64,000 nt of DNA from Scleroderma bovista (lineage: Eukaryota; Basidiomycota; Agaricomycetes; Boletales; Sclerodermataceae), in assembly GCA_037178675.1 (NCBI GenBank), contig JAYMGJ010000267.1:62001-126000 (forward strand). The letters run 5' to 3'. The translations under genes were made by a program, and so were the position numbers. This document shows positions 13,795 through 36,914 of the stretch, in pieces. The notes under the pieces are model-generated. The model ran no database searches. It was not told where the DNA came from and saw only the letters and a list, made by a program, of their open reading frames with translations. Each line of letters begins with the position of its first letter. The stretch's first letter is position 1.

Positions 13795-13797
13795 TTA

Positions 13798-13928
13798 TGA
13801 AGTTCGATTTGTACAAATATTATTTACCCTGAATACATATCTATTTACCCCGAAATGATTACAAATGATTTATGCCGAATACAATCTATTTACACCGAAT
13901 GCAAACTATTTACACCGAATGCAAACTA
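13798..13928 (+). repeat. Element 1 left terminal inverted repeat
   Basis: Starts TGAAGTTCGATTTG. The inner part is a string of short units of the type TATTTACMCCGAATRCA, which may be transposase binding repeats. It matches the reverse complement of 23215-23345 with only a few differences. Confidence 0.75.
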
Positions 13929-14249
13929 GTTTTTATGCTGCATACAAAGTTGAGTCTACTACTATTAACTTTCTAAGTCAGCGACCATATAAAGAATGCT
14001 AGTAGTATTCCCCTTGTGATCACACATGAGTTACAAGAAATAAATTTATTAAAGAAAGCTAGTAGTAACTGTGAGATAGGTTTTGTGCTATAAGTGGGTG
14101 GTCGTAAATATGGAAAACTAGAAAAAATTAATTATTATAAGAAATTGTATGGGTGTCACTGGAATAGTCAGGCAAGTGTGATAGGATGAAAGGAGTGACA
14201 GGATAAAAATAAGGTATATATGCAAACAAGGGAAAATGTCTATGTGCAA

Positions 14250-15981
14250 TTAAAAACGAAATTCACGATTCACCTTCCATGGATTAACCGACTCGTCCAT
14301 TTGGAATGAGCCCGAGGGAGGTGGATGAGCAGGGCTCGCAATAGGGGTGGGAGTGCGAACAGTAGTCTGAGGGAGGTCATTTACAGGAGTACTTGCTGAT
14401 GTGATGATGCCATCTGGTGTGTATGGTGGTGAAGGGGATGAAAAGGGGAGAAAAATATCAGACCCAATGTCGTCAGAGTCTTCACTAGTAGTCAGATTGA
14501 TGACATCCATAGTGACATCAATGGCAGCTGAGGTAGATGGCTTGGTAGCACAAGTGATACCTACAACCATTGAACGATAGTTAGATATTGGTCTGCCTCA
14601 ACCAGAGCACTTACCCTTTGTGCATAGGCGTTTTGAGCGACGAGGCATACTAGATGAGGACTGATCACCATCAACATCAGATAAATGCTCGCTAATGGTA
14701 CTGGCATCAAGCTCAGGATCTGACTCAGCTAGCCTCAAGTCAAAGTCAGGGGAGGCTGAAGCATGGTCAAATCCATCATCTGAGGCATGACCAAAATCAT
14801 CGTCTGAGACTATGGGAGATATATCGATGGCTTTTGCCTTTCCCTTGTTACTACTGGAGGCTATTTGAGCCCAGCTTGCAAGGGTGGACTTTGGGATAGC
14901 CTTTCGAGTTGCTAGTATAGCATACAATTAGCTAGTACCCTTGTATGAGGGAATGGACATCAACTTACCGAGAACTAGAACTCGTTCATCATGTGATTGA
15001 TGCTTACCACCTTTGATCGATGTGTAGATATCTTCACCTCCAAAGAAATCTTTTCCATTAACGAGAGAGAAATGCCTACGATCCTTCTCACACAGAACCA
15101 AAGGGGGCAGAAATTGCTGATCATTTCCATTGTCTGTCGCAATGTGGTTCCTATTCACGATCTAAATGGAGATTATTTTGTTAGTAACCAGCAATGAGAG
15201 TGCTGTCAGCATACCTTTGGAAGACTATCCAAGTAGATAAATAGATGTCTTGGAAGTACTTTGCGAAGCAGAGACTTTTCAAGTTGTGAGTATGACCAGT
15301 TACGATCAAAGGTATAGCGATGACGATAGTCAGAGCAGCCTAAGCCAAGGGTTTCTAGTCGGTTTAAATCTCCAGGGTTAACACGAGGGTGGTTTAAAGT
15401 GGGAAAAAGCTGCTGAAGACTGGTACTAGGATCAAAATCGTCTTCGTCTTCAACATCACTAGTAGGCTAGAATGCATGTACACTTGTGTCATGAAAATGT
15501 GGTAGTATGGTTAAAAGATGTACTCACTGCCTTGACCCCCCATGGGAGAATGATGATTCGTGACACCTCAAATTTCATATCCTTTGGTCGGCCTCGTTGA
15601 CTCTGGTGAAAATTTGAATAAGTAACCAGGAGAATGAGTTGTAAACCTCACAAGCTTTTGGCTACTACCCAGACTCATCACCCTCCCTTTTCCCTTCAGA
15701 CCTTTGTTTGTTTCCAACTTAGCTTGATTTAAGGCCTTGGAAAGCGAAGAGGATGTTTGGGAGCGAGCAGGATTGAGGCCAATACTATGGGATGAACTGG
15801 GCAGGGCACATTGAGAAGATGATGCTGAAGAACGATATGAGGAAGTCGAAGGAAGAGAGGAATTACTGAGCAGATTTTGCAGAACAGAGTCTACAACCGA
15901 GTTGGAAGAACGAGGGAGTTGTTTGAGAGAATGTCCATTTTCAGAGGATCCAAAAGCTATTTTTCTAGACCTTTTTACCAT
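14250..15981 (-). CDS. Element 1 Ser/Asp-rich protein, six-exon model
   Basis: The start at 15981 gives MVKRSRKIAFGSSENG followed by a Ser-rich low-complexity region ending in GLKGKGRV. Later exons encode RGRPKDMKFEVSRIIILPWG (about 15600-15540), a mixed helical domain (about 15470-15215), a segment near 15160-14975, an acidic Asp/Ser-rich region with SKRLCTKG (about 14915-14620) and a tail ending NPWKVNREFRF (stop at 14250). Each part has a counterpart in the same order in element 2 (31209-23690). No domain was recognised; the RGRPK and SKRL basic patches suggest nuclear localisation and perhaps DNA binding. Conservation of exon order across two diverged elements argues that it is a real gene with an element-linked role. 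Exact splice sites are approximate. Confidence 0.55.
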
Positions 15982-16139
15982 GAGGGCCAGCTATTAAAAA
16001 GTGAAAAGTGTGAAAAAGGAGTGTGCAGTATTGAAGAAGATGGAGAAAGTAGAAAATGCCGAGACGACAAAACAAAGTCCATTTTCTAAATTTCTCACAG
16101 TCTCTAACATGTTTGATATGATTGCTACTAGCCAACTTT

Positions 16140-18267
16140 CTACTCAGTGTCCATGATTATTTCCAATGTGCTATTCAGGACAGCAAGGGATTGACACCAC
16201 CTGATTGCTTGTGGCTGCCAGATGAAATGAGGCAATTCCACTATAAGCTCTTTTCTCCCCTGTCTTCTGCCATGGATGACCTCGGTTTCAGGATATCCAT
16301 CCTCACCCCATTCTTCCTCCAACATACCAAAGCCCGAAGGTATGTGTTCCATTTCATGTAGTCTTTCAAAGGCATCATGGAAAACCAGCTCAGCCTGGGG
16401 GGTAGGGAATGGATTGTCGTCATTTGGAACTTGAGCTCCTTCATGTAAAATCTGTGTTGCCTGTTCTTCAGCAACAAGTGTTGCAACAGTAGTAAGGTCA
16501 GTGCTATCAAGTGGGATGTCCTCCCATTCCTGAGCATCTGTATCCAAACTTGAGGACATTTGTGAATTGGACTGTCCAGCAAATCCAAGGTAGTGTTGAA
16601 TAACATCTGGGTGAATGGTCACCTCATTTGTCATATAAAGACCATGTTCCAGCTGTCCCATAAAGCGCATGTCCTATTTTGCTGTTAGTAATGCAACTGT
16701 ATACTAGTATACTTGACCACTCACATTGGGACTCTGATTATGCCCTTCTCCAGAGAGTGGGTGTGCATTCCATTCTGCACAAAAATAGGCACAATCGTCA
16801 TTGACCTCATGGAGGAATAGATGGTGGAGAAGCCATAGATGGTGAGGGTTATAGCGGTCAAGCTGATGGCAGCGTTCAAGTCGCAGAAAGAAGCCTCTCC
16901 ACTGATAGGCAAAGCGCTGCCCAACCTCCACCCACATCCGTTCAATACGGGTATTGTGGGTCGATCTAAATATTAGTAGTTGCTGGTCTATCAGCCTTTT
17001 ATATAGTATGTATTGGTGCATACTTACTTTCCCCACATAAAACTGCCACGGCTGTGACCACGAGCCATGATCATGAATACTGAGACATCTTTATTCTCCC
17101 CACCACGGTCGCCACGCACTCGAGATGGTAGGCCATATGTATCAACTGCATGGCAGAAGGTCCCAAGCACAGTGGATGCCCTATTGTTAGTGTGTGCCTC
17201 TAGTCCAACCACCTATTATAAAATAAAGGGTAGCTTGGGGACATAGTACTATGGACTTGACTTACAGTTCGGCAGTATCCATCAACAACACCATGTATCA
17301 CGATACCCCAATGAACGAGTTTGTGGTGACCATCCATATGCCAGACAGCATTTGGACGTGGAACATGATACTCCCGTCGGTGAATAGTGGTCTGTCGCCG
17401 AAGAACATGTCCCAAAGGGTCAACACGACGTAATGATGCAGATATCCGGTCACGTTGTATGCGTAGTCCATGCTGCCTTAGAGAACCTGTCAAATATCTA
17501 ATACCAGATCGAGGTTTGATGGACCGGAAATGATGAATTAACTGGTCAAGGGTTTCATCAGGGAGTGATGTATGGCGATGATCAATATGGTACTCCTTTA
17601 AATATGAGCGTAGAGTGTGCCGGTGAATTCCCAAAAGGCGAGCAAGCTTGCTAATGGAAATATGTCTTCCTGGTGCCATCGCAGCCTGCAAAACAGCAAT
17701 GTTTGGCCTCTTGCGTGGCCTTCCAGGACGATGGTTATGCTCAACCTCAATGGGTTGCACATAGCTAATGTGAGATGCCTCACTGCCAAAATACCACATG
17801 AATCACTGTATGCAGAAGAATTATAGTTGAGTTTGATTACTTACTGCCCAACAGCTATTTTGAGCATCGTCCAGCTGTTGTAAAAGAGTGCCAAAACATG
17901 CTGTGCAATCTATAATCCATGGGAGTAGTTGATCATCCCGAGAAGCTAAGGCCTCCAAGCCATGCAGAATGGGGACAGCATCCTTTGCTACTGCATTGGA
18001 GTGAAATTGAAGGCGAGAGACATCACCTTGAGTCTGTAAAGCTTGGCTCGCATGGGCAAAAATGTGGTCTAAATTTGATTTGGCTTGAAGGACCTGTGCT
18101 GAATGGGAGAGTGGGAAATTGGCTGGCAACTCAGGTAGGGCCATAAGAAATAGTAGGCAGCCAGTTGAAGCAGTGGTAGGGAATTGGTGTGTAAAATAAC
18201 TGGTGACACGATCACTGATTATGTAATGAGTAAGCAGTGGTCCTTCCTGAGTCACTGCAACTCCCAA
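16140..18267 (-). CDS. Element 1 DDE (rve-fold) integrase/transposase
   Basis: The multi-exon gene begins at 18267 with a ~140-residue N-terminal helical region. A helix-turn-helix follows (HISISKLARLLGIHRHTLR), then a region ending SLRRVDPLGH, and the catalytic core: first Asp in NAVWHMDGHHKL (near 17332), second Asp in LPSRVRGDRGGEN (near 17110), Glu in HNTRIERMWVEVG (near 16940). A C-terminal domain ends at 16140. The MDG / RGDRGGEN / HNxRIER set is that of a family of integrase-core proteins found in animals and fungi; I know of no named transposon superfamily for it. The reaction would be DDE strand transfer. The exon junction near 17840/17780 is unclear. Its start lies only 24 bp from the divergent BTB start. 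Homologue in element 2: 31390-33390. Confidence 0.7.
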
Positions 18268-18291
18268 TACTATTTACTACAGCCACCTCTG

Positions 18292-19285
18292 ATGGACTTG
18301 ATCAGACACCCTGATTTCTATATGGATGATGGAAATATTGTGTTCCAGGTATGGTGCCATTAGTTCATTGGAGCGATGGGTTTTCAACTTGGTGATTCCA
18401 ATTGTAGGTGGAGAAAACCCTCTTTCGTATACACAAAGGTTTCCTCATGCTCCACTCGGGGACCCTTCAAGGCATTCTACCACTACCAAGTGATTTTCAA
18501 GAGGATGCTAGTGATGCCCTTCCTATTCTGATCCCATCCAATGCATCAATTTCAGCCACCGAGTTCGCACAGTTCTGTGCTTGGATTTATCACATGTAAG
18601 TTGCACTCTACTGGTAATCCTGATGGCAAAAAGTAGTACTGAAACTATATACTACAGTGGATCACAGCCAAATGAGCTTGATGAGCAATCTCTCATTGCC
18701 ATCTTAAAGGTCTCAAAATACTGGCAGATAGAATCAAGCATTCACTGGGCAGTTGGCAGGCTTGAACAGCTTGGGCTTACTTCTACTCACAAGTTACTGC
18801 TGGCAAAGACATATGCCATTATCCACTGGGTTCCTCCTGCGATACATCACCTCATCAGTGCCCCACTGTCTGAGATTTCACAGAATGATGCTGCATCTCT
18901 GGACACCCGGACATATTCCATCATCGCCCAAGCTCGTGAGGCGATTGAGGTAGAGCGCAAGAAGATAGGGGCAGTAGCTCCTGGGCTATCTCTGGCACCA
19001 TCATTGGCTTGTACATATGCAAAACATGCCACCTGCAAGGATGTATGGGCACGATTCTGGTGGACAAAGGTAGCCTACCAGATTCTTCATCCTACTAATC
19101 CCCTCCAGCTCTCAGCAGTCTTTGACTATGTCACTGGACTTGCTACTCCCGAGGGTCTTAATCCACAGTGTAAGGAGGAATTTTTGGGACAGGTTGCAGA
19201 AACTGGAGCACTGGCTGTGGAAGAGGAGATCATTGGTGCTGCAATAGCAGCAATTCAGCAATACTTTAGTTCTACCTCTATGTAA
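18292..19285 (+). CDS. Element 1 BTB/POZ-domain protein
   Basis: Three exons (18292-18348, 18408-18595, 18658-19285) join in frame through GT-AG introns of 59 and 62 nt, giving about 290 residues. The N terminus (FYMDDGNIVFQVEKTLFRIH, then a GFLMLHSGTLQGI stretch) is a typical basidiomycete BTB domain: Asp-Gly-Asn-hydrophobic followed by V..TLFR.H. The C-terminal half is helical (SLIAILKVSKYWQIESSIHW and onward), as in the expanded fungal BTB family whose members may act as dimerising adaptors, for example for Cullin-3 ligases. Here the role is unknown. It is transcribed divergently from the integrase with almost no spacer, and a homologue in the same position in element 2 shares the same two intron positions. 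Confidence 0.8.
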
Positions 19286-20040
19286 TTCAGTTCCCTTAGC
19301 AGTGCTGCTGTAGTATGAAGTCTTCTGTAGTGCGCTTTTCACTTATGTAAGTAAGTAAACAAACATAAACAGTTCTGTTTATACTTCAACATGCCCCCCA
19401 TACACGGAGCGGGGTAATGGATAGTAAAAGTATCAAATAAATATACTTAGCTAAATCCAAATTATTGTGTTGCAAAAGAAATGGTGTGTCCGGTTCAAAA
19501 TGTACTTGAGCTATGTTGGTGCGAAGGTTTGTGGAATGCGAGACTGCCGCGTCATTGCCTGATTTAGTAAGTTGCATGATGCTCGTGTTGATAGCAACGA
19601 CCAACTGCCCACCCTCTGCCCGTTCGGTTCGTGGTGCCCAACACCTCAATTAGCGCATTCCACGGTACGTACATGTATCCGTCTCCAATGCTGACCGTTT
19701 CCACTGACTAGCGTGTTTGGGGGCTCGATTTCGTGCCTATTCGGTGAGTACTGCCTTGCCCATCCATTTTGACGCGTTCTGATGGGTTCCGTTCCATTTA
19801 CAGCCGTTTTTCCCCCCGCACGTCCGCCGTTTGCCTCCTCGGAGTGCTGCTTGGAGTCCATTTCGCAGCTTGACTAGGTGAGTCCGGTGGGTTTCCTCGC
19901 TTTCAGGGTATGCTGACAATACCCGGCGTGTTTTTAGCTTTTAACGCGTTCGTTTCAACGCTTGGGGCACCCGTGCACCCACTCAACGCGTCCGTCTGGC
20001 CCCCAAGGCCGTCCGTCTCGACTGTGCCAACACACGGCGC
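19286..20040. other. No confident gene
   Basis: Lies between the BTB and dioxygenase-like genes of element 1. It contains the short dispersed repeat 19342-19391 and minus-strand frames of 60-97 codons without recognisable content. GC rises sharply toward the right. The corresponding spacer in element 2 is under 100 bp, so this is probably inserted DNA. Confidence 0.4.
19342..19391 (-). repeat. Short dispersed repeat, LTR-end-like
   Basis: Second copy of the 3694-3742 segment (GTAAGTAAGTAAACAAAC). On the minus strand it begins TGTTGAAGTATAAACAG, similar to the copia LTR start. Confidence 0.35.
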
Positions 20041-20995
20041 ACGGCGGTGACAACACAACACGACGGCGCACAATGCACGACACGGCGACACGACACGACG
20101 GCGGCGTGACGCGGATGGCCAATGCCACGCCATCACGATGGCGACGACGGCGCGACTCCTCACGGCACGGCGACGACAGCAGTGGCTGGCGAGCACGACA
20201 GCGACGTCGACGGCGCGACGCAGGTGGCCAATGCCACGGCGTCACGGCGACGAGGACGGGGCGTGCGTGGCCAATGCCATGGCGTCACGACGACGTCGGC
20301 GACATGACGCGGATGGTCAATGCCACGGCATCACGACGACGCCGACGACGGCGCCAGGGCGTGCGTGGCCAATGCCATGGCGTCACGGCGACGAGGACAG
20401 GGCGTGCGTGGCCAATGCCATGGCGTCACGACGACGTCGGCGACGTGACGCGGATGGCCAATGCCACGGCATCACGGCGACGACGACGACACGCACGACT
20501 CGACACGGGCACGCACGACATGGCGACGACGACGGCCATGGCACACGACACGGCGGGAAAGCAAGTTGAAGGCGACTCACAGCACGACGGCGACAGCAGT
20601 GGCTGGCAAGCACGACAGCGACGTCAACGGCATGACGCAGGTGGCCAATGCCACGGCGTCACGGGGGCGGGGCGTGCGTGGCCAATGCCTTGGCGTCACG
20701 GCGACGACGGCGACGTGACGTGCGTGGCGCGGTGGCCACCACCTCACAGCGATGGCGACAGCGACAGCAGCGACGCTGCCACCACCACGCAGCGCCGGCG
20801 ACGTCGACGGCGTGGCTACCACCACTCAGCGATGCAGCGACGGCGGCGAGACGTGCATGGCCAGTGCCACGACGACACGGTGACGTCAACGGTGTGGCCA
20901 CCACCACACAGCAGCGACGGCGGGCGACGGCGACGACAGCGACGTGGCCACCACCATGCAGCAGCGGCAACGACAGCGACAGCGAGACGTATGTG
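20041..20995. repeat. GC-rich degenerate minisatellite
   Basis: Nearly 1 kb is built from variants of units such as GGCCAATGCCAYGGCGTCAC, GTGACGCGGATGG and CGACGACGGC. The longer block GGGCGTGCGTGGCCAATGCC recurs at about 20260, 20357, 20400 and 20672. Base composition is far more GC-rich than all neighbours. Open frames on both strands (up to 344 codons, Arg/His/Thr-rich) are a product of missing stop codons in this composition and are not called as genes. Confidence 0.75.
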
Positions 20996-21273
20996 ATACC
21001 CATAATTCGCTGTATATACTCTCCACGGTGGGCGTGGGTTCAGAAAGTGGCAGTGGCTGGAGTAGAACTCTGGGCTTTGCTATGGCATGGTCTGCACAGT
21101 CACGCAACAGGGTCCACAGCGTTACCACTAGGCTACAGTAGCATTGCTAGCATTACAGTCCTTTACTATAAAACCCCACCTTTGACTGGATACCCTTTTT
21201 GGGTAATCTATTTCCCACACATCAAAGCCCACCTTCTGCTTGCAACAATCACCCCTACACCCCACAATCACCC
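20996..21273. promoter_or_regulatory. Probable promoter region of the dioxygenase-like gene
   Basis: The 280 bp before the start at 21274 include an ACTATAAAACCCC TATA-like site near 21166, about 105 bp upstream of the ATG. No gene is seen. Confidence 0.35.
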
Positions 21274-23026
21274 ATGCCAAAGCAAACCACACAGCAAAAA
21301 AAGGCACTAATGGCCTGTAAGCCACCTAATCCACCTTTTTTTGGCCTTTTCTACTAAAAGTAGGCTGTAGTCTTTGATGGATTGGCAGCCGAAGCAGGCC
21401 TCATGTCTGCAATGGCCTCTGGGGTACTTGGTGTGCTGGAAATGCAGCAGATAAAGCTTGCAGGGGAGGCTGCACACTTAGACTGTATTCCCAAGGGTGT
21501 AAGTAGGCCATGTACCTTCTATATATTGGTCTAACTCTGACCAGGCTGAAAACTTCCTGCGCCTTGTCGCTCACCATTCTAAGCTGGTGCCAAACCCTCT
21601 TGCCACTGCAGTTGACCGCTACAAGTACCACCGCAAGTCTGACCAGAATCTCCACAGGGTTCAGAAGCGTGACCTGGTTAGTCTCAATGCTTACCTTTTG
21701 TTCCTGCCAGTTCCTTACTCTTGTGGTACTAGGCCACTGCACTTGGTCTTAAAAGTGAACTGCGTACCTGTGGTGAACTCCAGGCCACTGGTGTCAGGAT
21801 TGTGCACCGTAACCGGGCTGATGACACACAGTACAAGTGTGGCATGACTCTTGTTGATGCAGGCAATGAGTCTCTTGCCAGGGGTGCCACAAAGCCTGTG
21901 CTGGCTGTCCCTGCTGATCATACCTGGTATGTTGTACCTGCAGAAGAAAGTGTCATTATCCTTAATGACAAAGGTAATTTCATATGTACTAGCACCCATT
22001 TTGATGCTGACTGGATGTATTTTTAGGCCACATTGAGCTCACTGTTCTGCGTGGCTGCTGTGCTTCCCGACCAGATCTCATTGACTATGTCAATGCGATT
22101 ATTGCCCAGGCAGTTGGGGACCGCCGTAATTGCCGTGTAGGTAGTGGCTATATTTACATGTGTATATACTAAACCTTCTGCTGCTTTACATAGCCTAACC
22201 ATGCTGGAACTCTTGTGCAGTATGGTTGGAATGCAGGGCCCCGCCATGCACGTGTTTTTGGACTTGTTAGAAATATCAAGAAAACATTAACTGGTGAGGA
22301 CCGTGAAGAATGTGACAGGAAAATTTTAGGTGTCTTTGCTTTATCATGGAACCTTCTTACTGCTGCATTACCTAAAGAAGTCATCGAACCAACATATGCT
22401 GCCATTGCTGCAGCCAAACTGCCTGTGATGGCATCACAGGGGGATGTTAAAGGTCTGTACTACCTAGTATGGTATATCTCACTATCCCTACTGACCTTGG
22501 GAAGACACTGGATATCAACTGGACCTCCCTGGGGGTCCTTTGATGTTTGGTACTGCAGACCGTGCCCCTGCTGAGGGCTACATGTCCCAGAACTATGCAT
22601 CGTATGTATCCATATATTTTTCTACAATACTATATTGTTGATGATAATCAAGTACTATTCATACTGACAGACTTTATGCACCTTATGCTCTGAATTGGGT
22701 GACAATGCATGCAGTGGAGAGTACTACAGAGGTAAACCCCCAAATGACTGGGGGGAATTATGTGGATGTCTCCCTCCATGTTGTGGTAATGTGTGCTACT
22801 GACACTATTATGGTAAGTGTTATTGCATATAATCCTAGCCACAATTTCTCACATTTTATAATAGACTATGTGTCCTAAATTCAAGCATGGCACAACCTTG
22901 TCATGCCCTGGAGTTTGCCGTCAGGGGACTGCAATTAACTTTTCCACCCATATCAAGGATGCATATGAAAAGGCAGCTGCCAAAGGGGGGTTTGACTTGA
23001 AAATTTTTCAAGGCCCTGTCGCATAA
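21274..23026 (+). CDS. Element 1 double-stranded beta-helix dioxygenase-like protein, HxD lost
   Basis: A model of about nine exons from ATG 21274 to TAA 23026 joins in frame through introns with GT-AG ends. It gives FFDGLAAEAG, then ENFLRLVAHHSK, TGVRIVHRNRADD, GWNAGPRHARVFGLVRN, DTGYQLDLPGGP, LYAPYALNW and KFKHGTTLSCPGVCRQG, ending FQGPVA. The element 2 homologue has SHVDPAYCAW where this one has SLYAPYALNW. Both keep a later His (HGTT) with Arg eleven residues on. That HxD...H...R spacing is what 2-oxoglutarate/Fe(II) dioxygenases use for iron and co-substrate. If so, this copy lacks two of three iron ligands and may be an inactive paralogue. The family is not recognised with certainty; a distant link to the fungal TET/JBP expansions is speculation. 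Confidence 0.55.
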
Positions 23027-23214
23027 CTTATAAGTACCCCATGCTACTGTTACAACTTTTTTCCTTTTCCTTTACTGATTTTGGCCTGGTACCTCTGAGG
23101 CTACTACTAGTAGATAGCACATGTACTACTTTGCCATATGTATACAGTAGTATATACTACCTCAATGAGGATTTATAAAACTATAGTGAACTTTCTATTT
23201 GTATTCGGCATAAA

Positions 23215-23345
23215 TCATTTGCATTCGGCATAAATAGTTTGCATTCGGTGTAAATAGATTGTATTTGGCATAAATCATTTGTAATCATTTCGGGGTAAAT
23301 AGATATGTATTCAGGGTAAATAATATTTGTACAAATCGAACTTCA
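23215..23345 (-). repeat. Element 1 right terminal inverted repeat
   Basis: Reverse complement of 13798-13928, ending CGAACTTCA before TA. It contains the same ATTCGGCATAAAT/ATTCGGTGTAAAT units. Confidence 0.75.
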
Positions 23346-23347
23346 TA

Positions 23348-23569
23348 TTGACCACATAGTACATCCGATGTTGCTGTAGCCCTGTAGCAGTAAGATGGGG
23401 GGTAAAGTCTGGAGTCTTGATGAAATGTAGATTATGATGTAGCATTGGCATTATAGTATAGTGGATTCGCCACCCAGCTGTGAATTAACGCTGGCAGGCT
23501 TGCAGTCCCACCAAGCTGTAAGTTCAAATCCCCCTGTGAGCATAATTTAAAATTTGTAACTGCATTTTG
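23348..23569 (+). repeat. Element 2 left inverted repeat with tRNA-like Pol III boxes
   Basis: The repeat contains TAGTATAGTGG (23454-23464), a match to the Pol III A box, and GTTCAAATC (23522-23530), a match to the B box. They are 57 bp apart and in tRNA order. The flanking stems do not pair well, so it is more likely tRNA-derived (SINE-like) than a working tRNA gene. It matches 36693-36914 in inverted orientation with about four mismatches. Confidence 0.65.
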
Positions 23570-24436: not shown

Positions 24437-24482
24437 CTCCCCCTCGCTGTGCTGCAGGTAGAGCACTTCAGCGAATAAGGCG

Positions 24483-27400
24483 CTAGATGCTGCCAGAGGG
24501 AAATTGTAAGCCTAGTTGAGCTCTGAACTTCGCGAATTTCTCGCGGGGTAAGTTCTTGATGAGCAGATCGGCGGGATTCTCAGCACCATCAATGAAGAAT
24601 AGTTCCACGTTACCTTTCGCGACTGACTCGCGGATTCCGTGGTAGCGGATGTCGATGTGCTTGGAGCGAGGCTCCGTTACAGGGTTGGATGCCATGAATA
24701 TGGACCCCTGATTATCACCGCAAATTGGGATAGCTTTCAGCTTATAGCCGAGCTCACCGAGTAGACTCCGAATCCAGGTAACTTGGCGAGCGCAATCGCT
24801 CAAAGCCATGTATTCAGCCTCAGTGGACGAGTATGCAATAGTCTTCTGCGCACGAGAAGTCCAACTGATCAAGCCATCTGCAAGTTTCAGGTAGAAACCT
24901 GTCTGCGAGAGGCGAGAGGTAGGGTCTGATCCCCAATCTGAGTCTGTGCATGCAATCAGGCCAGCACTGGATCCACCATTGTACACTAGGGAATAATTAG
25001 GTGTACCAATCAAGTAGCGACAGATATAGAGTGCTTTGGAGAGGTGGTCCTGAGATGGGTTCGCGGCATGGCGTGAGAGATGGGTGACTGCAAAAGCAAT
25101 GTCGGGCCTAGTGCCTAACATAAGGTACAGAAGGGACCCAATAACCGTCTGGAAACGGGAGCGGAGTTCCGCATCAACAGGCTCTGTATTTTTGGCGGCA
25201 TAGTAGCCAGCCGGCAGTGGGGTGCTTGCGGACTTTGCATTGAGCATGCCACAGCGTTCGATGACCTTTTGGAGGTACGCGCATTGGTCCAAGTGGATAG
25301 CATGACCTTTGCGAGTGATTCGCATTCGGAGGAACTCCTTAGGTTCTCCAAGGTCTCTGCACTCCCATTTGCGCATGAACTGCGCTTGATAGCATCAACA
25401 ACAGCCTTGTTAGGGCCGCAGAATAAAGCGTCGTCAACGTAGATAATACCAATGACGATGTTGGTGCCTTTCTTCTTGTAGAAGAAAATGCCTGCTTCAG
25501 ACTTAAGGCGCTCAAACCCGAGCTCTTTGAGAGACTCATCGAGTGTGCGCCACCAAGCTAGGCCGGCCTGTTTGAGGCCATAGAGGGCACGCCAGAGGCG
25601 GAGCACTTTGTGCTCTTGCCCGGGAACTGCAAACCCTTCGGGTTGTTCCATGTAGATCTCTTCGTCGAGCTTGCCATACAAGTAGGCGCTCCGAACGTCG
25701 AGTCCAGTGATATACCAGTTTTCAAGTGCGGCAAGCGCAAGCATAAGGCACACTGTTTCAAAGCGCACGACTGGTGAGAAGACCTGGTCGAAATCTAATC
25801 CCTCGACCTGGGAGAAGCCTTTCGCTACTAAGCGGGCTTTCTTGCGGCCATCCGACTTTACATCAAAGACCCATCGGTTCTTAATGACCTTCCGGTCTCG
25901 GGGACGGTCAACTAGCTCAAAGACCTTGCGCTTTCACAGCATGTCGAGCTCTTCTTGGCAAGCAAGTCGCCAGAATTTCTGCTCAGCTTGGGGTAAGCGA
26001 GCGATGTCCTTATAGGACCAGTTGCGGACACTCTCATATTGAGGGTCGCGGGTTTCGAGGGCTTTGCCCATCAGATAACGGACTAGGTTTGCTCCCCCTT
26101 CCTCGCACATCTTTTGCACATCTTCCTCACTGGGTGTTGCAGAGGTGTCGGGGAAACCACCAGGAACATGGTCTGGTGTGTCCGGTTGTGGGGGTCTAGG
26201 GACCTCACCCACTGTTTCTCGCCATTGAGAGGCACTTTCGATATCCCGGAGTTGCTCGACGGGATGTCACCGCTCACCATACACGTTACCGGGGCGCAAT
26301 GGCGCTCTACGTTCACGTTGGGGGCGGGCAGGGATATTCACTGCAGGAGGTCGCGGCGCATTCTGGCGGCGTTCAGCTCGGCCAGGGCGCTGCGGTGCCG
26401 GAGGTGGCGGATTTCTCGCCGGTGAAGGTGTTCTCGGTGCCGGTGGAGGCACTGGAGATGGCGTATGGGGAGGATTTATTTGATTAGGCTCTTCCTCAGG
26501 AGCCTCAGGTTCCTCGCGCTTTGGATCGTCATCCTGCGCTTGGGGATGTGGGTAGCCATGGTCGTGTTCCACATCATCATCACTGTCGGTATCATCAGGG
26601 GGATTCCCTGGTCGATCAGTGGCTGGTTTCGGATTTGCCCTTCCGAAAGGGTTCTCGAGAGGTTCGCGCCTGTTTTTGGGGCAGCGAGGGAAATGACGCT
26701 CGTCAAAGACGGCGTGAGCAGCGGTGAACACTGCATTGGTGGAGCGCATAAACAAAAAATTGCGCTCATTGCCAGGGGCAACACCGACATAAGTCATAAG
26801 CTCTGACTTGGGAGCCATCTTATTTGCTCTAGCCGAGGCTGGGAGGTAGACAAAGGCTCCACAGCCAAATACACGGAGGTGATCGATGTTAGGCATCTCC
26901 CCCTTAAGCATTTCATGGGGGGTGCGCCATCGCAGGCGAGCTACCGGAGTACGGTTGTAAAGGTGAGTTGCATGAGCGAACGCAAATTCCCACCAGGAGT
27001 CAGGAATGCAGGCTTGATGCCGCATAGACTCAGCTTTGTCCATGAGAGTGCGCCCTAGACGCTCGGCGCAGCCATTCTGCATGGGAGTTCTTGGAGCACT
27101 TTGATATATTTTAATTCCTTTCTCAAGGAGTGCTCGATCAAATAGATCAGATTTATACTCTCCGCCGGCATCGGACATCCATCCAACGACGTGCGTATCA
27201 TGTTGGACGCGCACCATTTCGAGGAAATCTTTGGCAGCCGTAATCGCTGCAGCTTTGGAGCGAAGAGGCATAGTCCAGGCATGAGAAGTATAGTCGTCGT
27301 AAAAGGTGATAACATATTTAAATTTCCGGTATGACGTAACTGGGAAGGATTTCAGGTCAGAGTGCACCAGCTCGAAAGGCTTGGAAGCACGTCTTTCATT

Positions 27401-29407
27401 CTCTGGGAAAGCTCGATTGGGCATTTTGCCAAGAGCACATCCAGGGCAAACACAGTCCTCAGTAGGAAAGTGAATCTCTGGGAAGTGCTGCGTATGCTTT
27501 TGCGCGCGTCGGAGTACTTCCTTCGAGGGGTGCCTGAATCTCTGGTGCATAATGTTGTAATCGACTTTGCTCACGGAGGCGATGTAGTTAGATCTAATTA
27601 TTGGGATAGATCTAATCCCAAAAATGATGTTGCGATCGTCTTCTGGGTCTGGCCCAAACCATAGGCGTTCAGCTTTATGAATGAGGCTAATGCCTCGCTT
27701 ATCGCCAGTGACTTTGTAGTTACGCTGGAGCATTTCGCCCATAGAAATAAGGCGTGCAGTAGCACCTGGCATATGGAGCACTTGGGTGAGTGTGATAACT
27801 TTCTCATCCCCTGAGTTGTGGTCTAGGCACCGGAGTAATACCATGCCAATGCCAGCAATTAGTGCTACACCATTTGCGGTTTTGGCGTAGTGCGCTCGCT
27901 TTAGTGCGTTATAGGAGGCGAAATCGCCTATGTCACCAGTGAAGTGGCGTGATGCGCCAGAGTCTAGTAGCCAGAAGGCACCAGATAGTTCGCTATCGTC
28001 AACCATTTTTCCCTTACAGCCAGCACAGCGTGCATCATTCAGACACAAACAGATATATGCTTTACTCGAGATACAACATGTCATATTATAGTTACTACTC
28101 GCTATATACAGTGACGGCGTATAGCACACATGTAAAGGGAGCGTGTCAGTGTCGATCAGCACGCGTGCAGAAGGTACTTGCCTGAAGAGGCTGGCCTCCG
28201 CGCCCATTGCCATCGACGTCGCGTTGTAGCGGTCGAGGACCATTGCGTCGATTTCGTCGAACTCGTCGTCGGCAAAGGGCTCGTGAGCGAAGGGTTCATC
28301 ATCCCCAAGGGAGATGGCATCCTCCTCATACATCATGATGCGCTCCTCGAGACGAGGGCGCTTCAATGAGGAGGGACCGGCCTCGGGCTGGTCCAGGTTC
28401 GCACTTGCCATCGACCCAACTTGGTCGAGGGTGCGGATGGTCTGGCAGGAGGGTTCTACCCCCAAGCGGTGTGCCAAGTCAAAGGCCTTGATGGTATTTT
28501 CGAATGCGAGGGGGCCGTAGTGGGCAGCACCGGGAGTGTGGGCCAAGGCGCGAGGGTCAACGGTGGGCTCTGGTCCATCATAGTGGACGTATGTAGTGAA
28601 GGCGGCTTGTTGGGTGTTCTCGCGGCGAGCGCGAGCCTTCTTGCCGCCACGTCGGGTGCGGCCTCCCTGTCCTTGGGCAGGAGCGTTTCCGCTCGTACCG
28701 CCATTGGACCCGCCTTGCTGCTGCTGCTGCCTCTGGGGCTGCTGCTGCTGCTGGGCGAACTTAGGGTCGGCCGGCTTGCACTTCACAGCGCTAAGCTTGT
28801 TGGCCTGGGGGCCCTTACCACCGGCGCGCGAAGAGGCGCCTTTCTGCTCGAATGAGAGCGTGGCGGCCTTGACTATCCTGTCGGGCTTCAGATTTTTAAT
28901 CTCGTCCGGCGACGTCTGGCTGAGAATTTGAGCTACAACCTCCATAGTAGGAGGGAGCTTGCAGAGGATCATTGCCTGCACGGGGGCAGGAAACTCGAAG
29001 CCAGCATCTTTGAGGTACGCAAAGTGGCTAAGCACTTTGGTGATGGCAGGAGTGGGATGAGAGCCAGCAGGAATGGTAGTCGCCAGGAGCTTGCTAAGCT
29101 CGGCGTAGGCAGAGCTGATACTGGGGGCACCGAAGTTCTTCTTTAGGTGGTCCCAGACGTCCTTAACGTTGTCGAGATTCGAGACCACAACCTGGATCGA
29201 GGGGGCGAGGCGCAAGGTGATGTTACCAAGCGCTCTTTCAGTGTTGTCGTCCCACTCCTTTCAGTCATCATGACCGGCAACGGGTTGTGTCGTTGAGTAA
29301 ACGTACCATTGGCCTTGTGCCCGGAGGTAGGCCTGCATGGAGGTGTGCCACTGCTGCCAGTTGGAGCCAGTGAACACGGGAACCATCTTGTCGAGAGCGC
29401 TGGACAT
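24483..29407 (-). pseudogene. copia gag-pol (gag, protease, integrase, RT, RNase H)
   Basis: From ATG 29407: a gag domain (FTGSNWQQWHTSMQAYL), a retropepsin site (LLDSGASRHFTGD), the pre-integrase zinc region (HQRFRHPS...CVCPGCALGK) and an integrase core with Asp (VHSDLKSF), Asp (MSDAGGEY) and Glu (NGCAERLGRTL). Then comes RT with QPEGFAVPG, ALYGLKQAGLAW and the catalytic YVDD, and RNase H with an ADLLIKNLP-like end. This protease-integrase-RT order is diagnostic of Ty1/copia. Breaks: TGA at 29261-29263, 26267-26269 and 25934-25936, and a one-base loss near 25380 that shifts RT into the frame of 25376-24483. Otherwise the polyprotein is full length (~1,600 codons). A gag zinc knuckle was not seen. 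Confidence 0.9.
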
Positions 29408-29769
29408 GGTGATATTCTGTTGGGAGTCAACAGAGTCAGCAAGTGAATGCGACAATGGACAATCAAGAAAAGAAGAAACACCTGAGTGCTAGTGAAAGCA
29501 CTTCTGTCAACAGCTAGCTCATGACTAGGTCATGCCAGCGCAAGTCGTCGACGATGTTCGCCATGGTTGGCGCAAGTCATTGACGAACTTCGCCTGGGGC
29601 AATGCAGGTGCTCAACTAGGAGCTCACTGTCTGGCGCAAGTCGTCGACCAACTTCGCCTTGTGGCTGTGCAGGGGCTCAGCTAGGAGCTCACTGTGGTCC
29701 ACAGTGTCAAGCTAGTTAAAGCGACGCTCAGGGAGCTGGAGCGCTGCCTGGTGCATTGCTGCACACAGT

Positions 29770-29790
29770 GCGCTCACAGGGCTCATAACC
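29770..29790 (-). other. copia primer-binding site (half-tRNA type)
   Basis: On the plus strand this is CGCTCACAGGGCTCATAACC with one G before it, directly abutting the 5' LTR. GGGCTCATAACC matches the anticodon stem-loop of eukaryotic initiator tRNA-Met (CAU). The sense strand (GGTTATGAGCCC) would pair with an internal tRNA fragment, as known for Drosophila copia. Confidence 0.7.
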
Positions 29791-30066
29791 TGTTGAAGCA
29801 ATACCTATATACGTAGAGGAACTGCTACTCCAACTCACCTGTTGGGTGGAGTGCACAACCTGAGATGGTAGCGGTAGCTGGTCAAGAGCTGTTATATTAT
29901 ATAAGCAATGTCCGCTGTTTATATACAACAAATAGTGTGACATGTGACTGTGACGCGTGACATGTGACATGTAACATCTACTATTACTAAGTCTACACTA
30001 ATATGGGTTGCAGTCTTGTGCGCACTTCGTCGACGGTTTATGCCGGGTGCACGTGCGACTTCAACA
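29791..30066 (-). repeat. copia 5' LTR
   Basis: 276 bp, partner of 24163-24436. Its right end TTCAACA is followed by the TGAAA duplication at 30067-30071. Confidence 0.9.
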
Positions 30067-31389
30067 TGAAATTCTGTATCGCTGTCCGAGTCTGCCTTTC
30101 TGGACTTGAAGTCACCTATGTCAGAGTCAGGAGACAGCTCAACTCTCTTTCCTTTCCCTTTGCTAGCTGTACAAGTCCATTTCTCCATTACTTTGTGTGG
30201 TATTTTGTCTCGGGCCACTAGTATACACTCAAAACATCAACACAGGTACAGAACAGACTTAATGACATACCAAATATAAGTTCTGCTTCGTCTCTTTCCA
30301 GCCCTGACCTTCTCAACAACAATCTCCCCAGTCGGATAGTCAACTCCACTGACAACTGCAATCTCCTTCTGACTTCGGATGCAGAGGAGGTAGGGAGGGA
30401 AATACTGGTAGCAGGGATTCTGGGAGCTGTAATAGGCTGGGTTTATTATCTGTGAATAAGTAGGGTAGCAGCGATGAATAGCTCAAGTATAATATTAGCA
30501 TACCTTTGGACAATCATTGTCAAAGTAAGAAAATAATCCAGTGAATAGCGAGCGAAGCTTTGAATCCACTTTAGGAAAATCCCAGTCTCTGTCGAACTCA
30601 AAATAGTTGCGAAAATCTGAACAAGCCAGATTGATAGCCTCTAGCCTGCTGAGCTCAGCATTGGTGAGACTTTTGGAGCGGTGAAGGACAGGGAAGAGGT
30701 GCTCAAGACTGGGCTCATCAGTATCCATGTCACCAGGCTATAGTTATGTGGATTAGTGAAAGTAAAAATGACCACACTATGAAGCTCACCTCTTCAATCC
30801 CATCAGGAAGAAATATGATTCGTGAGATGAAAAAGGTCAAAGTCCTTGGTCGGCCATGTTTTCCCTGTCATGTAAAAATTAAAATGCTGTCTCATGTCTG
30901 GGCTTCATAGTCATCATTACTTACTGTTCGGCCACTGGTAGACCTTGTAGACCTTCCCTTTCCTTTGAGACCTTTATTTGCTTCACGACTAGCCTGTTTA
31001 TAGGAGGCAAACAAGGGGGCAGAGGAGGATTGAAATGAATGTGGGTTAATACTAGAGGAAGCGAGTGGTTTAGAAAGAACTTTTCCTAAAACTGAGTCAA
31101 CATAAAAAGATGATCCTAAGGGCTGAACTTGGGAGAGAGCTTGAGAAAAAGGAACATCCTCATCCTCTGAAGAAGAGAGAACACATTTTCTCTTCAGCTG
31201 TTTGCCCATGAAAGGAGTGGAGTGTGGAAGAAGATATTAAATTAAAGTGGAATGAAATGAAGGTGACGAAGAATGGCAATGAAAACACGACAGCACAGAG
31301 AACACAGCTCAAGATGATTATAAATGTTTTCACACACCAGCCTGATCTAATGGGTCATGTTTGGAAATAAACACTACTGGTAGTCTAGC

Positions 31390-33390
31390 CTAGTCAACTA
31401 AAGCTAGAGTGTGGCCAAGGACTTCAAGAGCTTGACACCAGTATACTGCCCGAGGATACCAGACAAAATGTGGAAGCTCAACCACAAGTTCCTTATTTCT
31501 TCGGCGACTGGAAGGAATGATTTCTATTTCAGGATAACCTTCATCGCCCCACTCTTCTTCTCTAACCCCTAGCTCAAAGGGCATGTGATTGAGCCTTTTG
31601 ACCTCATCAAGAGCTTGCTTGAAGACATTTTCTAGGTCTTCATGGTCAAAAGGATTGATGTGCTTTGGGACCTTTGCAGCCTTGTGCAAAAACTGTGAGG
31701 CTTGTTCTTCTGCAATCAGCGATGGAAGCTCAGTATAGGGAACAGAACCAGCTTCAATATCCTCCACATCCTCCCATTCCTCATCACTATTCTGCCCATT
31801 TGAGTTGATCTCAGTTTGAGACTGCTGTGACTGGCTAGTAGAGCCAGAGCCATAATAGTGTGCAAGCACATCAGGATGGAGAGTTAGCTCATTCTGGACA
31901 TAAAAACCATGTTTCAGGTGTCCAGTAAATCTCATGTCCTGTGGTGTATATTTGTCATAAACACATGATGGTTGAATAATAGTCACAGCACTTACATTAG
32001 GGCTCTGATTGTGCCCTTCTCCAGATATTGGATGGGCATTCCACTCTTCACAAAATTCAGCACAGCTAGCACTGATTTTAGTGAGGAAAAGATGGTGGAG
32101 AAGCCATAAATGATGAGGATTATGATGGTCAAGCAGGTGAATTCGCTCAAGGCGGTAGAAGAATGCACGCCATGGCCGTGCAAATCTTAACCCAACTTCC
32201 ACCCATAATCGTTCAATGCGGGTGTTGTGAGTGGATCTGAGATGTGTTACAGGCAAGTAGGTCATATAGAAAAAAAATACTTACGTTCCCCACATGAAGC
32301 TAGCTCTGTTAGGTCCTCAGGCCATAATCATCAAAACAGCAGTATCCTTATTCTCACCTCCTCTATCGCCACGCACACAGGATGGCAGCCCAAACTTTTC
32401 CACACCATGTAGAAATGTTTCCAGCACAGTAGAAGACTTGTTGGTATGGGCCTCCAATGCAATTGCCTAGTAATAAAGAGCATAAGATCAAAGAAAGTAT
32501 TGAAATGAGATTGCACATACAGTATGGCAGTATCCATCAACAATTCCATGAATGACAATGCCCCAGTGAATGAGTTTATGATGCCCATCCATGTGCCATA
32601 GAGCATTTGGACGGGATACCTGATATTGGCGCCGATGAACAGTAGTGCGGCGACAAAGCACTCTTCCCAGAGGGTCCACTCGGCACAGAGATTCAGTAAT
32701 ACGCTGCCTCTGAATACGCAATCCATGCCTTCTCAGTGACCCTGATAGATATCGCAAGCCTGTCTGTGGCTTGGTACTGCGAAAATGCTTTACCAGCAAA
32801 TCAAGGTCACCATCAGAGATAGGTGTATGCTGGTAGTCGATTTTATACTTCTTCAAGTAGAAGCGGAGGGTATTCCGATGAATGCCAATGATCCGAGCAA
32901 GTTTGGAGACTGAGATATGACATCCAGGAGCCATTGCTGCTTGTAGTAAAGTGAGTTTGGGTTTTTTGTGTGGTGGTCCACGGTGGCCTGTATGAACAAC
33001 CTCTACAGGCTTAACATGGCCAATAGCCAAAGTATCACTAGAACAAATGATATGATGATGAATAATAACCATGTTTTCATGTTTCACTCACTTTCCAACC
33101 GAGGTTTGTTGTGCATCATCAAGCTGCCGAAGCAGAATCCCAAAATGGGCAGTGCACTCAAGTACCCATTCTAAAGCAAATTCACCCTGCCTTGCCACAG
33201 TCTCTAAAGCATGTAATATTGGTATTACTTCACATTGGATGGTGCTTTGATGGTACTGGATGCGAGTAGGATCACTTCGTGTTTGTAGAGCTTGAGTGGC
33301 ACCATCGAAAATGCGAGCCAGGATGGCATAAGCCTGGGGTATTTGGGGTGACAATGGGTCTGAACATGGAGGCAAGTGAGGAAGTGGCAT
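31390..33390 (-). pseudogene. Element 2 DDE (rve-fold) integrase with one nonsense codon
   Basis: Homologue of 16140-18267. Exon 1 (33390 to about 33098) ends in a phase-2 intron. The next exon carries the helix-turn-helix (HISVSKLARIIGIHRNTLR) and first Asp (NALWHMDGHHKL). Another carries LPSCVRGDRGGEN with the second Asp, and 32265-31960 begins with HNTRIERLWVEVG carrying the Glu. The C-terminal part ends at 31390. All three catalytic residues are present. The only clear break is TGA at 32317-32319, where element 1 has an Arg codon (MARGHSR versus MA-stop-GPNR), so a single CGA-to-TGA change explains the loss. The N terminus is shorter than in element 1. Confidence 0.7.
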
Positions 33391-33569: not shown

Positions 33570-34547
33570 CATGAATCGGCATTCTACCTTTTGGTTTGCA
33601 GATGGAAATATTATCTTTCAGGTGAGATCATGACCCAAATAATTAAATCAAGTCGCTGATTATGTCGCATCTACTTGATCATGAACATAGGCTGAACAGA
33701 CTTTATTTCGTCTTCATAAGGGTGTTTTACTGGTTCATTCTCCTGCATTGAATGATATTTTGACACTGCCATCTGGGGTTGAGCATGATGGGGCCGATGA
33801 AGATCATCCAATCCTGATTGAAGGGTTAGCTTGTGACGAATTCGAACACTTTGTGTCATGGGTCTATCATGTGTAAGTTTGCTTTTATTCTTAGATGTGT
33901 ACTAGCTGTTATATAAGATCTGCAGCAGTGCAGAGTCACAGCAACCAGGGGTATCCTCTCTGGTGGCAATTCTTAAGGTTTCGCGCCTCTGGATGATCGA
34001 GAACAGCATTAACTGGGCTATCAATCATCTGGAACAGCTTGGCCTCCCTCCTGCACACAAGCTTGAACTGGCACGCATGTACTCCATTCCCCAATGGATT
34101 GCACCTGCGATGCAATCCTTGATTCTCCTGCCTTTGTCACAGATATCAGATAGCGATATTCATCAACTTGGTCTTCGAGTATATGCAATTATTGCCAAAG
34201 CACGTGAAGTTATGGAACAGGAAAGAAGAACATTGGCAGCTGTACCCCCTGGTCTGTCTCTTCCTCCCTCCCCCAGCTGTACTGCTGCCCAGCATGTCCA
34301 GTGCAAGGATGCTTGGGCTAGGTTTTGGTGGCAAAAAGTTGCTTGCCAGCTGCTTCATCCTATCACTCCTCTCTCACTTTCTGCAGTGGTGGAGTATGTG
34401 GCCTCTCAGCCTCATACTGTGGGTTTGAATGAGCAATGTAAGGAGGAAATCATTGGACAGGTGGTGGAAAGTGGTGGATTAAATGTTGAGGAAGAAATTA
34501 TTGATGGTGCAGTGGGAGCTGTTCAGCAGTACTATAATACCCTGTAA
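33570..34547 (+). CDS. Element 2 BTB/POZ-domain protein
   Basis: Exons 33570-33620, 33691-33872 and 33926-34547 join in frame with the same intron positions as the element 1 gene, giving about 284 residues. The N terminus reads FWFADGNIIFQ, then AEQTLFRLHKGVLLVHSPAL, the start of a BTB fold. The C-terminal part (SLVAILKVSRLWMIENSINW, then KDAWARFWWQKVACQLLHP, then EEEIIDGAVGAVQQYYNTL) aligns along its length with element 1. The open frame despite strong divergence suggests selection for the protein. Role unknown; an adaptor or silencing-evasion role would be speculation. It is divergent from the integrase with a 179-bp spacer. Confidence 0.8.
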
Positions 34548-34615
34548 AAGCAAAGATGACAAACCGCAATGTAACTTGTATTCTGGCTTTCTATGATAAT
34601 TTTCAACTGTATACT

Positions 34616-36427
34616 TTACAGCTTTTGATTGTCAGGATTTCCCTCACCAGCTTCTTCACCAGCAAAAATAGAACCACCTTTTTCCATCATCTCTCTATAT
34701 CCATCTGCAACACGCTTAGAAAAGGTAATGGCCATGTTTCGATTTGTGGCTCCATAGGACAAGGTGGTTCCATGGAGTTTGTCAGGTTGAAAAACAAAAA
34801 GAGTACCCACTGCAGCTTTAACCACAACCTTCAAGGTGACATCGACAAAATTGCCACCACCACCCTCTACATATTTCTGGGCCCACTTCTTGCCTGCTGG
34901 CTGCAAAGTTTCCACCTCTCTGCCAACACACAGAGAAAATGCCCAAGCACAGTAGGCAGGATCTACATGTGACCAGCTGCAAATGATTAGCCCATCTAGG
35001 GAACAATCAATAGATTGATATACACACGCAACATAGCCACAAGCCAAATATGTCTCAGGTGGGGCACGTTTTGCAGTGTGAAAGGAGAAAGTCTGGCCAT
35101 CAAGTACAATCTGAAAACCATCACCTACAATGCACAGAGTAAATGAATGCTATCATAGAGGATTGTGGTACTTACCTTCTTGAACATTCCTTGTGGCAAG
35201 GTTTGGAAGCCCCTCATTTTCTAAACATTCCATGACATGCTGGGTAATCTCCTGTGGAACAGCTGACTGGACAAGACTCCACATTAAACTTGTAGCACCA
35301 ATGACCTCCTGATCCTGCATAACTTTCTCCACATAATCCAAGTTTTTAGTGAAGCTTTTGGCCCAGCCAAGAACACGAGCATGACGTGGACCCATGTTAA
35401 GACCAGTCTGAACCATCATACCTGGATGGTTAGGCTGAACAGAAAAGTGAGCATCTCACTCAGTAAAGATAGAGTGACATACGCGGACATCACGGCGGTT
35501 ATCACAGCCATTATTGACAACCTCCTGCAGCCATTCAAATAAAGAAGTACTAACAGCTGACTGCATTGCAACATTGCGGATGACAACAAGCTCAATGACT
35601 GGTTTACCTATCAAACCATATTAGATCTGTCAAAGTATGAATTAGTACTCACCATCATTTTCTGAAACAAAGATCACCGATTGATCTGGGGGAACCACAT
35701 AAAACCCAGTTGACTTGTCGACAAGAACATGACCACTCTTGACACTATCAGCCTGGACCTCAGTCATATACTGCCTTAAACCAAATGGCTGGGTGCCCCG
35801 CTCTCGGTAAATAATATGCACTGGTCCATGGGGTCGCTCAATAGTCATATTCTGGTCCCAAGTACCACCATAGTGGTCAGCCAGGCTAAAAGGCTCACTT
35901 GTCAGAGACAAGGAATGAACCTGGTATGCTCAAAGATACATAATGGGTGTGGGCAATGAACACACTCACCACAGTACATTTGGCCCAGTGAGAAGCAGTA
36001 GAGGCCAGTGCCAGCTTTGCCTCCTTGTGGAGTTTCGACAGCTGCTGAAAGACTCTATGAAGCTGCACATCCCTGCTAGCTACAGAATGTCCTAGACGAA
36101 TGAATTCATGTGCCTTCATGTTTATTTTGAATAGATGAAAACATGTATGGAAAATGGAAGCACTCACATCAAGGGGGTTATTAGGGGTAAAACTGCCAGC
36201 ACCATCAAGGATGACCTGGAACCAAAAGGATGGTCCACTAAGATCCTGGGACACAAGATCTTTGAATTCTCCTCTGAGAGTAAGGTCTTTCAGGTATCCA
36301 ATGACTTAAATGCAGCTAAGTATTGAGTGCCAGAGTTTATAACACTGCAGTGATAATAGTACTCACATGGCCCCCAGTTCCATTTTGCCTGCCTTCTCCT
36401 CTTAGATTGTAGGTGATTGGACTGCAT
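34616..36427 (-). CDS. Element 2 double-stranded beta-helix dioxygenase-like protein
   Basis: A multi-exon model starts at 36427 (MQSNHLQSKRRRQAKWNWGP) with a phase-1 intron in the same place as in element 1. It continues FIGYLKDLTLRGEF, AHEFIRLGHSVASRD, HIIYRERGTQPFGL, GLNMGPRHARVLGWAKSF, GQTFSFHTAKRAPPE, SHVDPAYCAWAF and DKLHGTTLSYGATNR, and stops at 34616. HVD, a second His 66 residues later and an Arg eleven residues after that fit the iron and 2-oxoglutarate site of DSBH dioxygenases, so this copy could be catalytically active. The substrate is unknown; DNA, RNA or protein are all possible. It is in opposite orientation to its homologue in element 1 relative to the BTB gene. Confidence 0.55.
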
Positions 36428-36692
36428 GATAAAAGGAATACTGGGTAAGAATGTGGCTGAAAGGGTAGAAAACCTTGGATGAAAAGGGCTGGTGCAAAGC
36501 AGCAAAAATTTCGCTTCTGCTTACATAAGCAGTACAAGCACACATAGAGTACTTGGAAAGACCAGTAACCCACTAGGAAATTGACTACTGAAGATCTATT
36601 GTAATCTAAAACACCACCAAGCATGCAGAGAAGTGAAAGAAACAGATGAGATATTGTTTCTGCAGCAAAAAAGTTAAAACTCTGCAAGCATG

Positions 36693-36914
36693 CAAAATGC
36701 AGTTACAAATTTTAAATTATGCTCACAGGGGGATTTGAACTTACATCTTGGTGGGACTGCAAGCCTGCCAGCGTTAATTCACAGCTGGGTGGCGAATCCA
36801 CTATACTATAATGCCAATGCTACATCATAATCTAGATTTCATCAAGACTCCAGACTTTACCCCCCATCTTACTGCTACAGGGCTACAGCAACATTGGATG
36901 TACTATGTGGTGAA
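36693..36914 (-). repeat. Element 2 right inverted repeat with tRNA-like boxes
   Basis: Inverted copy of 23348-23569. The B-box complement GATTTGAAC is at 36732-36740. About four mismatches in 222 bp, far fewer than between the genes of elements 1 and 2. Confidence 0.65.

Follow-up and report, generated by a model that had tools for sequence, protein, structure and literature searches.

The window analysed here, a stretch of 64,000 nucleotides within contig C267 of a genome assembly of Scleroderma bovista (51.8 Mb, 850 contigs), contains two transposons, element 1 (E1) and element 2 (E2), each with genes for a DDE transposase, a serine- and aspartate-rich (Ser/Asp-rich) protein, a BTB protein and a dioxygenase-like protein, and the question raised by this locus is to which superfamily such elements belong and whether the three additional genes are an integral part of them. 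As the best overall explanation, to which we assign a probability of about 0.72, E1 and E2 would be two old subfamilies of a single lineage of the IS3EU superfamily carrying a four-gene set maintained by selection, with the roles of the BTB, dioxygenase-like and Ser/Asp-rich proteins as outlined below. The genome was searched with each of the E1 proteins and with the E2 dioxygenase-like protein; all these searches refer to this one genome and yield lower bounds, and gene structures are those of splice-aware gene models.

Gene content of the two elements

E1 (9552 bp, positions 13796..23347) is an IS3EU-type transposon bounded by terminal inverted repeats of about 130 bp (left 13796..13925, forward strand; right 23218..23347, reverse strand), as delimited by comparison of the inverted arms and of genome copies, and its relatives elsewhere in the genome likewise start with TATGAAG and end with CTTCATA. 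It encodes a Ser/Asp-rich protein of 485 amino acids (14250..15981, reverse strand, six exons in the model) with a homologue on contig C182, a transposase of 590 amino acids (16140..18144, reverse strand, start checked by translation) combining a helix-turn-helix domain with an rva_4 integrase core (Pfam PF24764, 2.8e-62), a BTB protein of 290 amino acids in three exons (18292..19285, forward strand), and a dioxygenase-like protein of 443 amino acids (21274..23026, forward strand, nine exons in the model). The catalytic positions D249, D306 and E341 are present in the transposase, and a regular-expression scan did not find an HHCC motif in it. The BTB and transposase genes are arranged head-to-head with their starts 147 bp apart.

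The portion of E2 inside the window extends from 23348 to 37140, while its left 226 bp were found, together with the flank, on contig C130. Its Ser/Asp-rich gene (23690..31209, reverse strand; 5' part from a gene model, 3' part an open reading frame at 23690-24067, with homology to C539 and C75) is split by a Copia long terminal repeat (LTR) retrotransposon (24163..30066, reverse strand, duplication TGAAA), a young element whose LTRs at 24163-24436 and 29791-30066 are 97.5% identical. The transposase gene (31390..33390, reverse strand), with the rva_4 domain in two exons, has an in-frame stop at 32317-32319, and E2 is thus damaged in two of its genes. A BTB protein of 284 amino acids, its exons checked by translation, is again encoded head-to-head with the transposase (33571..34547, forward strand), followed by the dioxygenase-like gene (34616..36427, reverse strand). 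By eye, a related Copia element was also seen next to an element remnant on C75.

The gene models bear out the original prediction for this DNA in that each of the four E1 proteins has a homologue in E2 and the genes follow one another in the same order, Ser/Asp-rich protein, transposase, BTB protein and dioxygenase-like protein, with transposase introns at corresponding positions in the models inspected and with strongly diverged proteins (identity 59% for the transposase, 53% for BTB, 35% for the dioxygenase-like and 39% for the Ser/Asp-rich protein). The strands, in contrast, do not agree throughout: the first three genes lie on the same strands in both, whereas the dioxygenase-like gene is on the forward strand in E1 and on the reverse strand in E2. 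Because the C182 copy has this gene in the E2 orientation, it looks as if it is the E1 gene that has been turned. The turned gene adjoins a stretch with a GC-rich minisatellite (19268..21042; G + C content 0.69 at 20001-21000), which occurs in E1-type copies and appears as a gap in the alignment of E1 with the C182 copy.

With respect to known domains, the E2 BTB protein matches the Pfam BTB model above the cut-off of 20.5 bits (22.8 bits, E = 1.1e-4) and the E1 BTB protein falls below it (17.2 bits, E = 0.0061), while a Pfam scan of the Ser/Asp-rich and dioxygenase-like proteins of both elements gave nothing significant. Comparison of three copies showed that each of their Ser/Asp-rich proteins retains a G-R-P core (window 14250-15981 and 30892-31236), which resembles an AT-hook.

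Nested insertion and target duplications

Although predicted to be adjacent, E1 and E2 are in fact nested, E1 residing inside the left inverted repeat of E2, the outer half of which is found on C130. There, the flank GCAGAT is followed by the E2 terminus, TTGACC, the first 14 bases of E1 and the contig end, and therefore GCAGAT is the target duplication of E2, TTGACC that of E1, and E1 is nested in the left repeat of E2. In line with this order, the right copy of TTGACC immediately follows E1 in the window (23348-23353), and GCAGAT follows the right terminus of E2 at 37141-37146. The 222-nt arms that span 23348-36914, with the left one at 23348..23569 on the forward strand, are only the inner half of an E2 inverted repeat of 448 bp, the right copy of which (36693..37140, reverse strand) is 98.4% identical to the left copy pieced together from C130 and the window. 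The inverted repeats of E1 were confirmed to end at 13796 and 23347, whereas the right end of E2, which had been placed at 36914, actually lies at 37140: when positions 36915-37400 were compared with the genome, a match on C130 ran from 36915 and ended exactly at 37140, and a match on C730 started at 37140. C730 contains the flanks of E2 with a single GCAGAT and thus represents one empty-site paralogue in the same genome.

Six family copies could be seen with both ends, all with termini TATGA..TCATA (TATGAAGTAC..GTACTTCATA in E2 and TATGACATT..AACGTCATA in the C539 copy) and all with 6-bp duplications, of which five are perfect (GGGGCG on C166, TGAAGG on C165, AATATG on C182, TTGACC for E1 and GCAGAT for E2) and one agrees in five of six positions (GTTCGG/GTTCAG on C539). 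Together with the empty-site paralogue, these duplications support the reading of E1 and E2 as gene-carrying DNA transposons. Two of the six copies, those on C166 and C165, are deletion derivatives. As a separate observation, about 100 bp of the E2 inverted repeat (positions 91-191) recur with 83% identity at C167:47460-47559, outside any element examined, and the same piece is found at C539:45458-45556, where it lies within the C539 element and close to the end of it.

Probable placement in the IS3EU superfamily

It had been assumed that no named superfamily accommodates these elements. However, the termini, the 6-bp duplications and the integrase-like transposase without an HHCC motif observed here are published marks of IS3EU/GingerRoot, which, in the part of its description considered here, is characterised by TA..TA termini, usually 6-bp duplications, and a DDE integrase-like transposase lacking the HHCC finger (PMC10045372). 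The superfamily is therefore already known; unlike in E1 and E2, BTB, dioxygenase or Ser/Asp-rich cargo does not figure in that part of the description (PMC10045372).

IS3EU families bearing a TET gene are known from rusts and from Tuber indicum, and, as far as the relevant parts of the report go, all of them have an alpha-kinase gene, the TET/JBP gene being located between the transposase and the divergent alpha-kinase (PMC12730594). These families are similar to E1 and E2 in uniting an IS3EU transposase and a dioxygenase gene in one element and, in the rusts, in their 6-bp duplications and terminal inverted repeats, but differ in their termini (TAYGG..CCRTA in the rusts versus TATGA..TCATA here), in the gene that diverges from the transposase (alpha-kinase versus BTB), and in the dioxygenase, which belongs to TET/JBP there (PMC12730594), whereas the E1 and E2 proteins do not match Tet_JBP. 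No kinase match was obtained among the E1 and E2 proteins scanned with Pfam, a scan that did not extend to other open reading frames. In the same sections of this source, five TET-bearing lineages are named for the Agaricomycotina without IS3EU being among them, and the word BTB is absent from its main text (PMC12730594). Kyakuja/Zisupton (KDZ) and Plavaka are likewise fungal transposons with dioxygenase (TET/JBP) genes, their transposases and target duplication lengths as described there being unlike those of E1 and E2 (PMC12730594). Among the papers listed by a search of the open-licence PMC literature, none joined IS3EU and BTB, an earlier Repbase deposition being possible; to our knowledge, the four-gene cargo set with its head-to-head BTB gene thus looks like an undescribed variant of IS3EU.

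Family copies, probable shared history and selection

According to the protein searches, all four genes occur together in E1, E2 and one diverged copy of each subfamily, on C182 and C539, respectively, no intact gene model having been obtained for the C539 transposase. The copies on C799 and C748 comprise three of the four genes, each being cut by the contig end, and C673 has three, with a short piece of the transposase. C447 carries the transposase, the Ser/Asp-rich gene and a BTB piece, dioxygenase-like fragments being located at a distance of about 7 kb, C75 has transposase and Ser/Asp-rich pieces, and C14 and C338 show the dioxygenase-like gene alone before the contig ends. Of the two deletion derivatives, the one on C166 has retained the Ser/Asp-rich gene, the dioxygenase-like gene and a transposase fragment, but has lost the BTB gene and the greater part of the transposase, and the one on C165 measures 4.1 kb. 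In addition, C684 harbours a BTB relative by itself. In a transposase tree in which 17 of 19 rows were kept, E1, E2 and the copies on C799, C182, C447 and C539 form one clade with a support of 1.000.

When grouped by pairwise identity rather than by gene trees, all four genes have the same nearest relatives, namely C182 for E1 and C539, C748 or C75 for E2. This is the pattern to be expected if the four genes had been together before the subfamilies split, and the presence of the set in both subfamilies with the same pattern of nearest relatives supports the proposal that the cargo has long been associated with the transposase. Codon alignments of E1 with the C182 copy, evaluated according to Nei-Gojobori, further gave ratios of nonsynonymous to synonymous divergence (dN/dS) of 0.10 for the transposase (584 of 590 codons), 0.30 for BTB (279 of 290), 0.28 for the dioxygenase-like gene (424 of 443) and 0.24 for the Ser/Asp-rich gene (462 of 485), the alignments crossing one, one, three and one stops, respectively, in intron tails or genes. 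In this comparison, all four genes are under purifying selection.

The dioxygenase-like protein

At the level of motifs, the protein contains the HxD...H iron-binding triad of Fe(II)/2-oxoglutarate (2OG) dioxygenases. HxD is present in all six sequences, as HTD in E1 (H340-T-D342) and C182, HVD in E2, HID in C539 and C748 and HQD in C516, and the HxE of PE-type TET was found in none of them; the distal HGT is conserved in the five sequences in which this part could be seen (E1, with H398-G-T-T, C182, E2, also with HGTT, C539 and C748). Of the E1, E2 and C182 proteins, none matched Pfam Tet_JBP (PF12851), a model with at least 150 matches elsewhere in this genome, all but one above the Pfam cut-off; among the 150 matches listed, there is not one on an E1/E2-type element or its dioxygenase-like gene. 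Judging from its motifs, the protein is probably a dioxygenase.

A BTB partner at distant loci

Diverged transposases of IS3EU-like elements are located at no fewer than 19 further places in the genome, 11 of which were examined over 1.5 kb upstream with a profile built from four BTB proteins of the elements. A BTB relative was detected upstream on the opposite strand, head-to-head with the transposase, at eight of the 11 loci (C219, C202a, C206, C573, C517, C546, C676 and C151; E = 9e-13 to 1e-4), four of which (C206, C546, C573 and C517) represent, according to the tree, a single subfamily of closely similar copies. Pfam does not recognise the single BTB open reading frames of these eight loci, and in 45.5 kb of other sequence from the same genome the best match of the profile had an E value of only 2.2. 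Since the distant loci show BTB but no dioxygenase-like match was listed on their contigs in the searches with the E1 and E2 proteins, which very diverged forms would escape, the association of BTB with the transposase appears to predate the dioxygenase-like gene and the other cargo. Weak relatives of the BTB C-terminus were also noted 2.6-3.5 kb downstream of distant transposases, at C676:9553-10137 and C237:95598-96182.

Possible functions and alternative explanations

Movement of the elements would be of the cut-and-paste type and catalysed by the DDE transposase, which fits the D, D and E residues of E1, the termini, the long inverted repeats and the 6-bp duplications. The BTB protein may be an adaptor or regulator that works alongside the transposase, both being possibly expressed from a shared promoter in the short intergenic region. 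The dioxygenase-like protein, conceivably a far relative of TET/JBP, might ease silencing through oxidation of either a modified base or a chromatin protein at the element, and the Ser/Asp-rich protein may be a disordered, possibly DNA-binding accessory. By analogy, an anti-silencing function is plausible. A more far-reaching version, in which the IS3EU transposase and BTB of mushroom-type fungi constitute an ancient two-gene core with a shared head-to-head promoter, to which one lineage added a new and highly diverged Tet-like dioxygenase branch and the Ser/Asp-rich protein as a joint anti-silencing kit aimed at the element itself, seems rather unlikely to us.

A number of observations weigh against the preferred explanation of an IS3EU lineage with a selected gene set. 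The assignment to IS3EU is based on the ends of the elements, their target duplications and the Pfam core instead of a phylogeny that includes established members, and the hexamers flanking E1 in the window, as assembled, differ from each other (CGAACT versus TTGACC). For the dioxygenase-like proteins, whose double-stranded beta-helix fold is putative, the best Pfam match is to PF20515 (Tet-like 2OG oxygenase), covering model positions 30-209 of 211, and was obtained only with the C182 protein at E = 0.17 and 12.3 bits (cut-off 27), the E1 and E2 proteins giving no match to this model. Comparing profiles with three TET loci from the same genome did not reveal any similarity, the arginine that binds 2OG varies among the sequences, and the fold model is too poor to be used (predicted local distance difference test score 31). 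At three of the 11 distant loci (C26, C309 and C202b), the BTB profile detected nothing in the 1.5 kb examined, and the margin of the BTB grouping is small, E1 being 58% identical to C182 and 56% to E2. Finally, synonymous divergence between E1 and C182 is uneven, with 0.78 for the dioxygenase-like gene, 1.02 for BTB, 1.62 for the Ser/Asp-rich gene and 1.89 for the transposase, which makes strict co-inheritance without exchange doubtful; a later exchange between the subfamilies is conceivable for the dioxygenase-like gene.

Alternatively, the cargo might consist of ordinary accessories of transposition, the BTB and Ser/Asp-rich proteins assembling or regulating the transpososome and the dioxygenase-like protein modifying the transposase or its partners. 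This possibility, which we consider real if somewhat doubtful, would be in line with the G-R-P core of the Ser/Asp-rich proteins and with BTB being the most widely shared partner at the distant loci, where no dioxygenase-like match was listed; however, other fungal transposon superfamilies have repeatedly recruited a dioxygenase, which the author of the relevant report ties, in the part drawn upon here, to methylation (PMC12730594). That host genes were trapped by chance between transposon ends, or that a host gene cluster merely lies beside transposons, is in contrast highly improbable. Mushroom genomes contain many BTB genes, and diverged dioxygenase-like relatives do exist without a detected transposase (C516, C259, C639 and C472) or with BTB only (C631), but the four-gene block is enclosed by matching termini and target duplications at several distinct locations (C182, C539 and the E1 and E2 sites), all four genes group alike, and the duplications and the empty-site paralogue disfavour such an origin.

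As to the missing duplication, the junction at 13795/13796 differs from the left flank that C130 reveals for this E1 copy, and hence appears to derive from a different E1 copy; it would thus be chimeric, by misassembly or by recombination. The sequence left of 13796 is itself repetitive, and the match of its paralogues on C539, C645 and C279 ends at 13795. This repetitive flank, and the 99.6% identity of E1 with the C799 copy over 7.4 kb, which would make ectopic recombination easy, speak for a real recombination between E1 copies. Yet C14, C799, C338 and C130 all end inside E1 copies, as expected of an assembler failing at a 9.5-kb repeat, and we regard real recombination as the less likely of the two origins.

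Other repeats in the window

Long repeat segments in two to three copies, about 90-98% identical, are located at 6200-8550, 42546-44276 and 58176-60510 near coding sequence that appears Gypsy-like by eye. A degenerate array of CTGATTGT-like units of 8-9 nt extends over 37415-37709, its other strand being open as a Gln/Asn/Ser-rich frame, and a perfect inverted repeat of 268 nt with 1052 nt between its arms occupies 62413-64000, up to the end of the window.

Implications for transposon biology

The nested pair E1/E2 provides an example of how such elements may break assemblies. The transposase-BTB pair, in turn, would serve as a marker for IS3EU elements whose genes may be treated as unrelated in annotations. 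If a lineage of these elements indeed carries its own BTB adaptor and an unrecognised branch of dioxygenases under selection, more TET enzymes would be known to travel on transposons than have been published so far, and the action of mobile DNA against host chromatin could be tested on an example.

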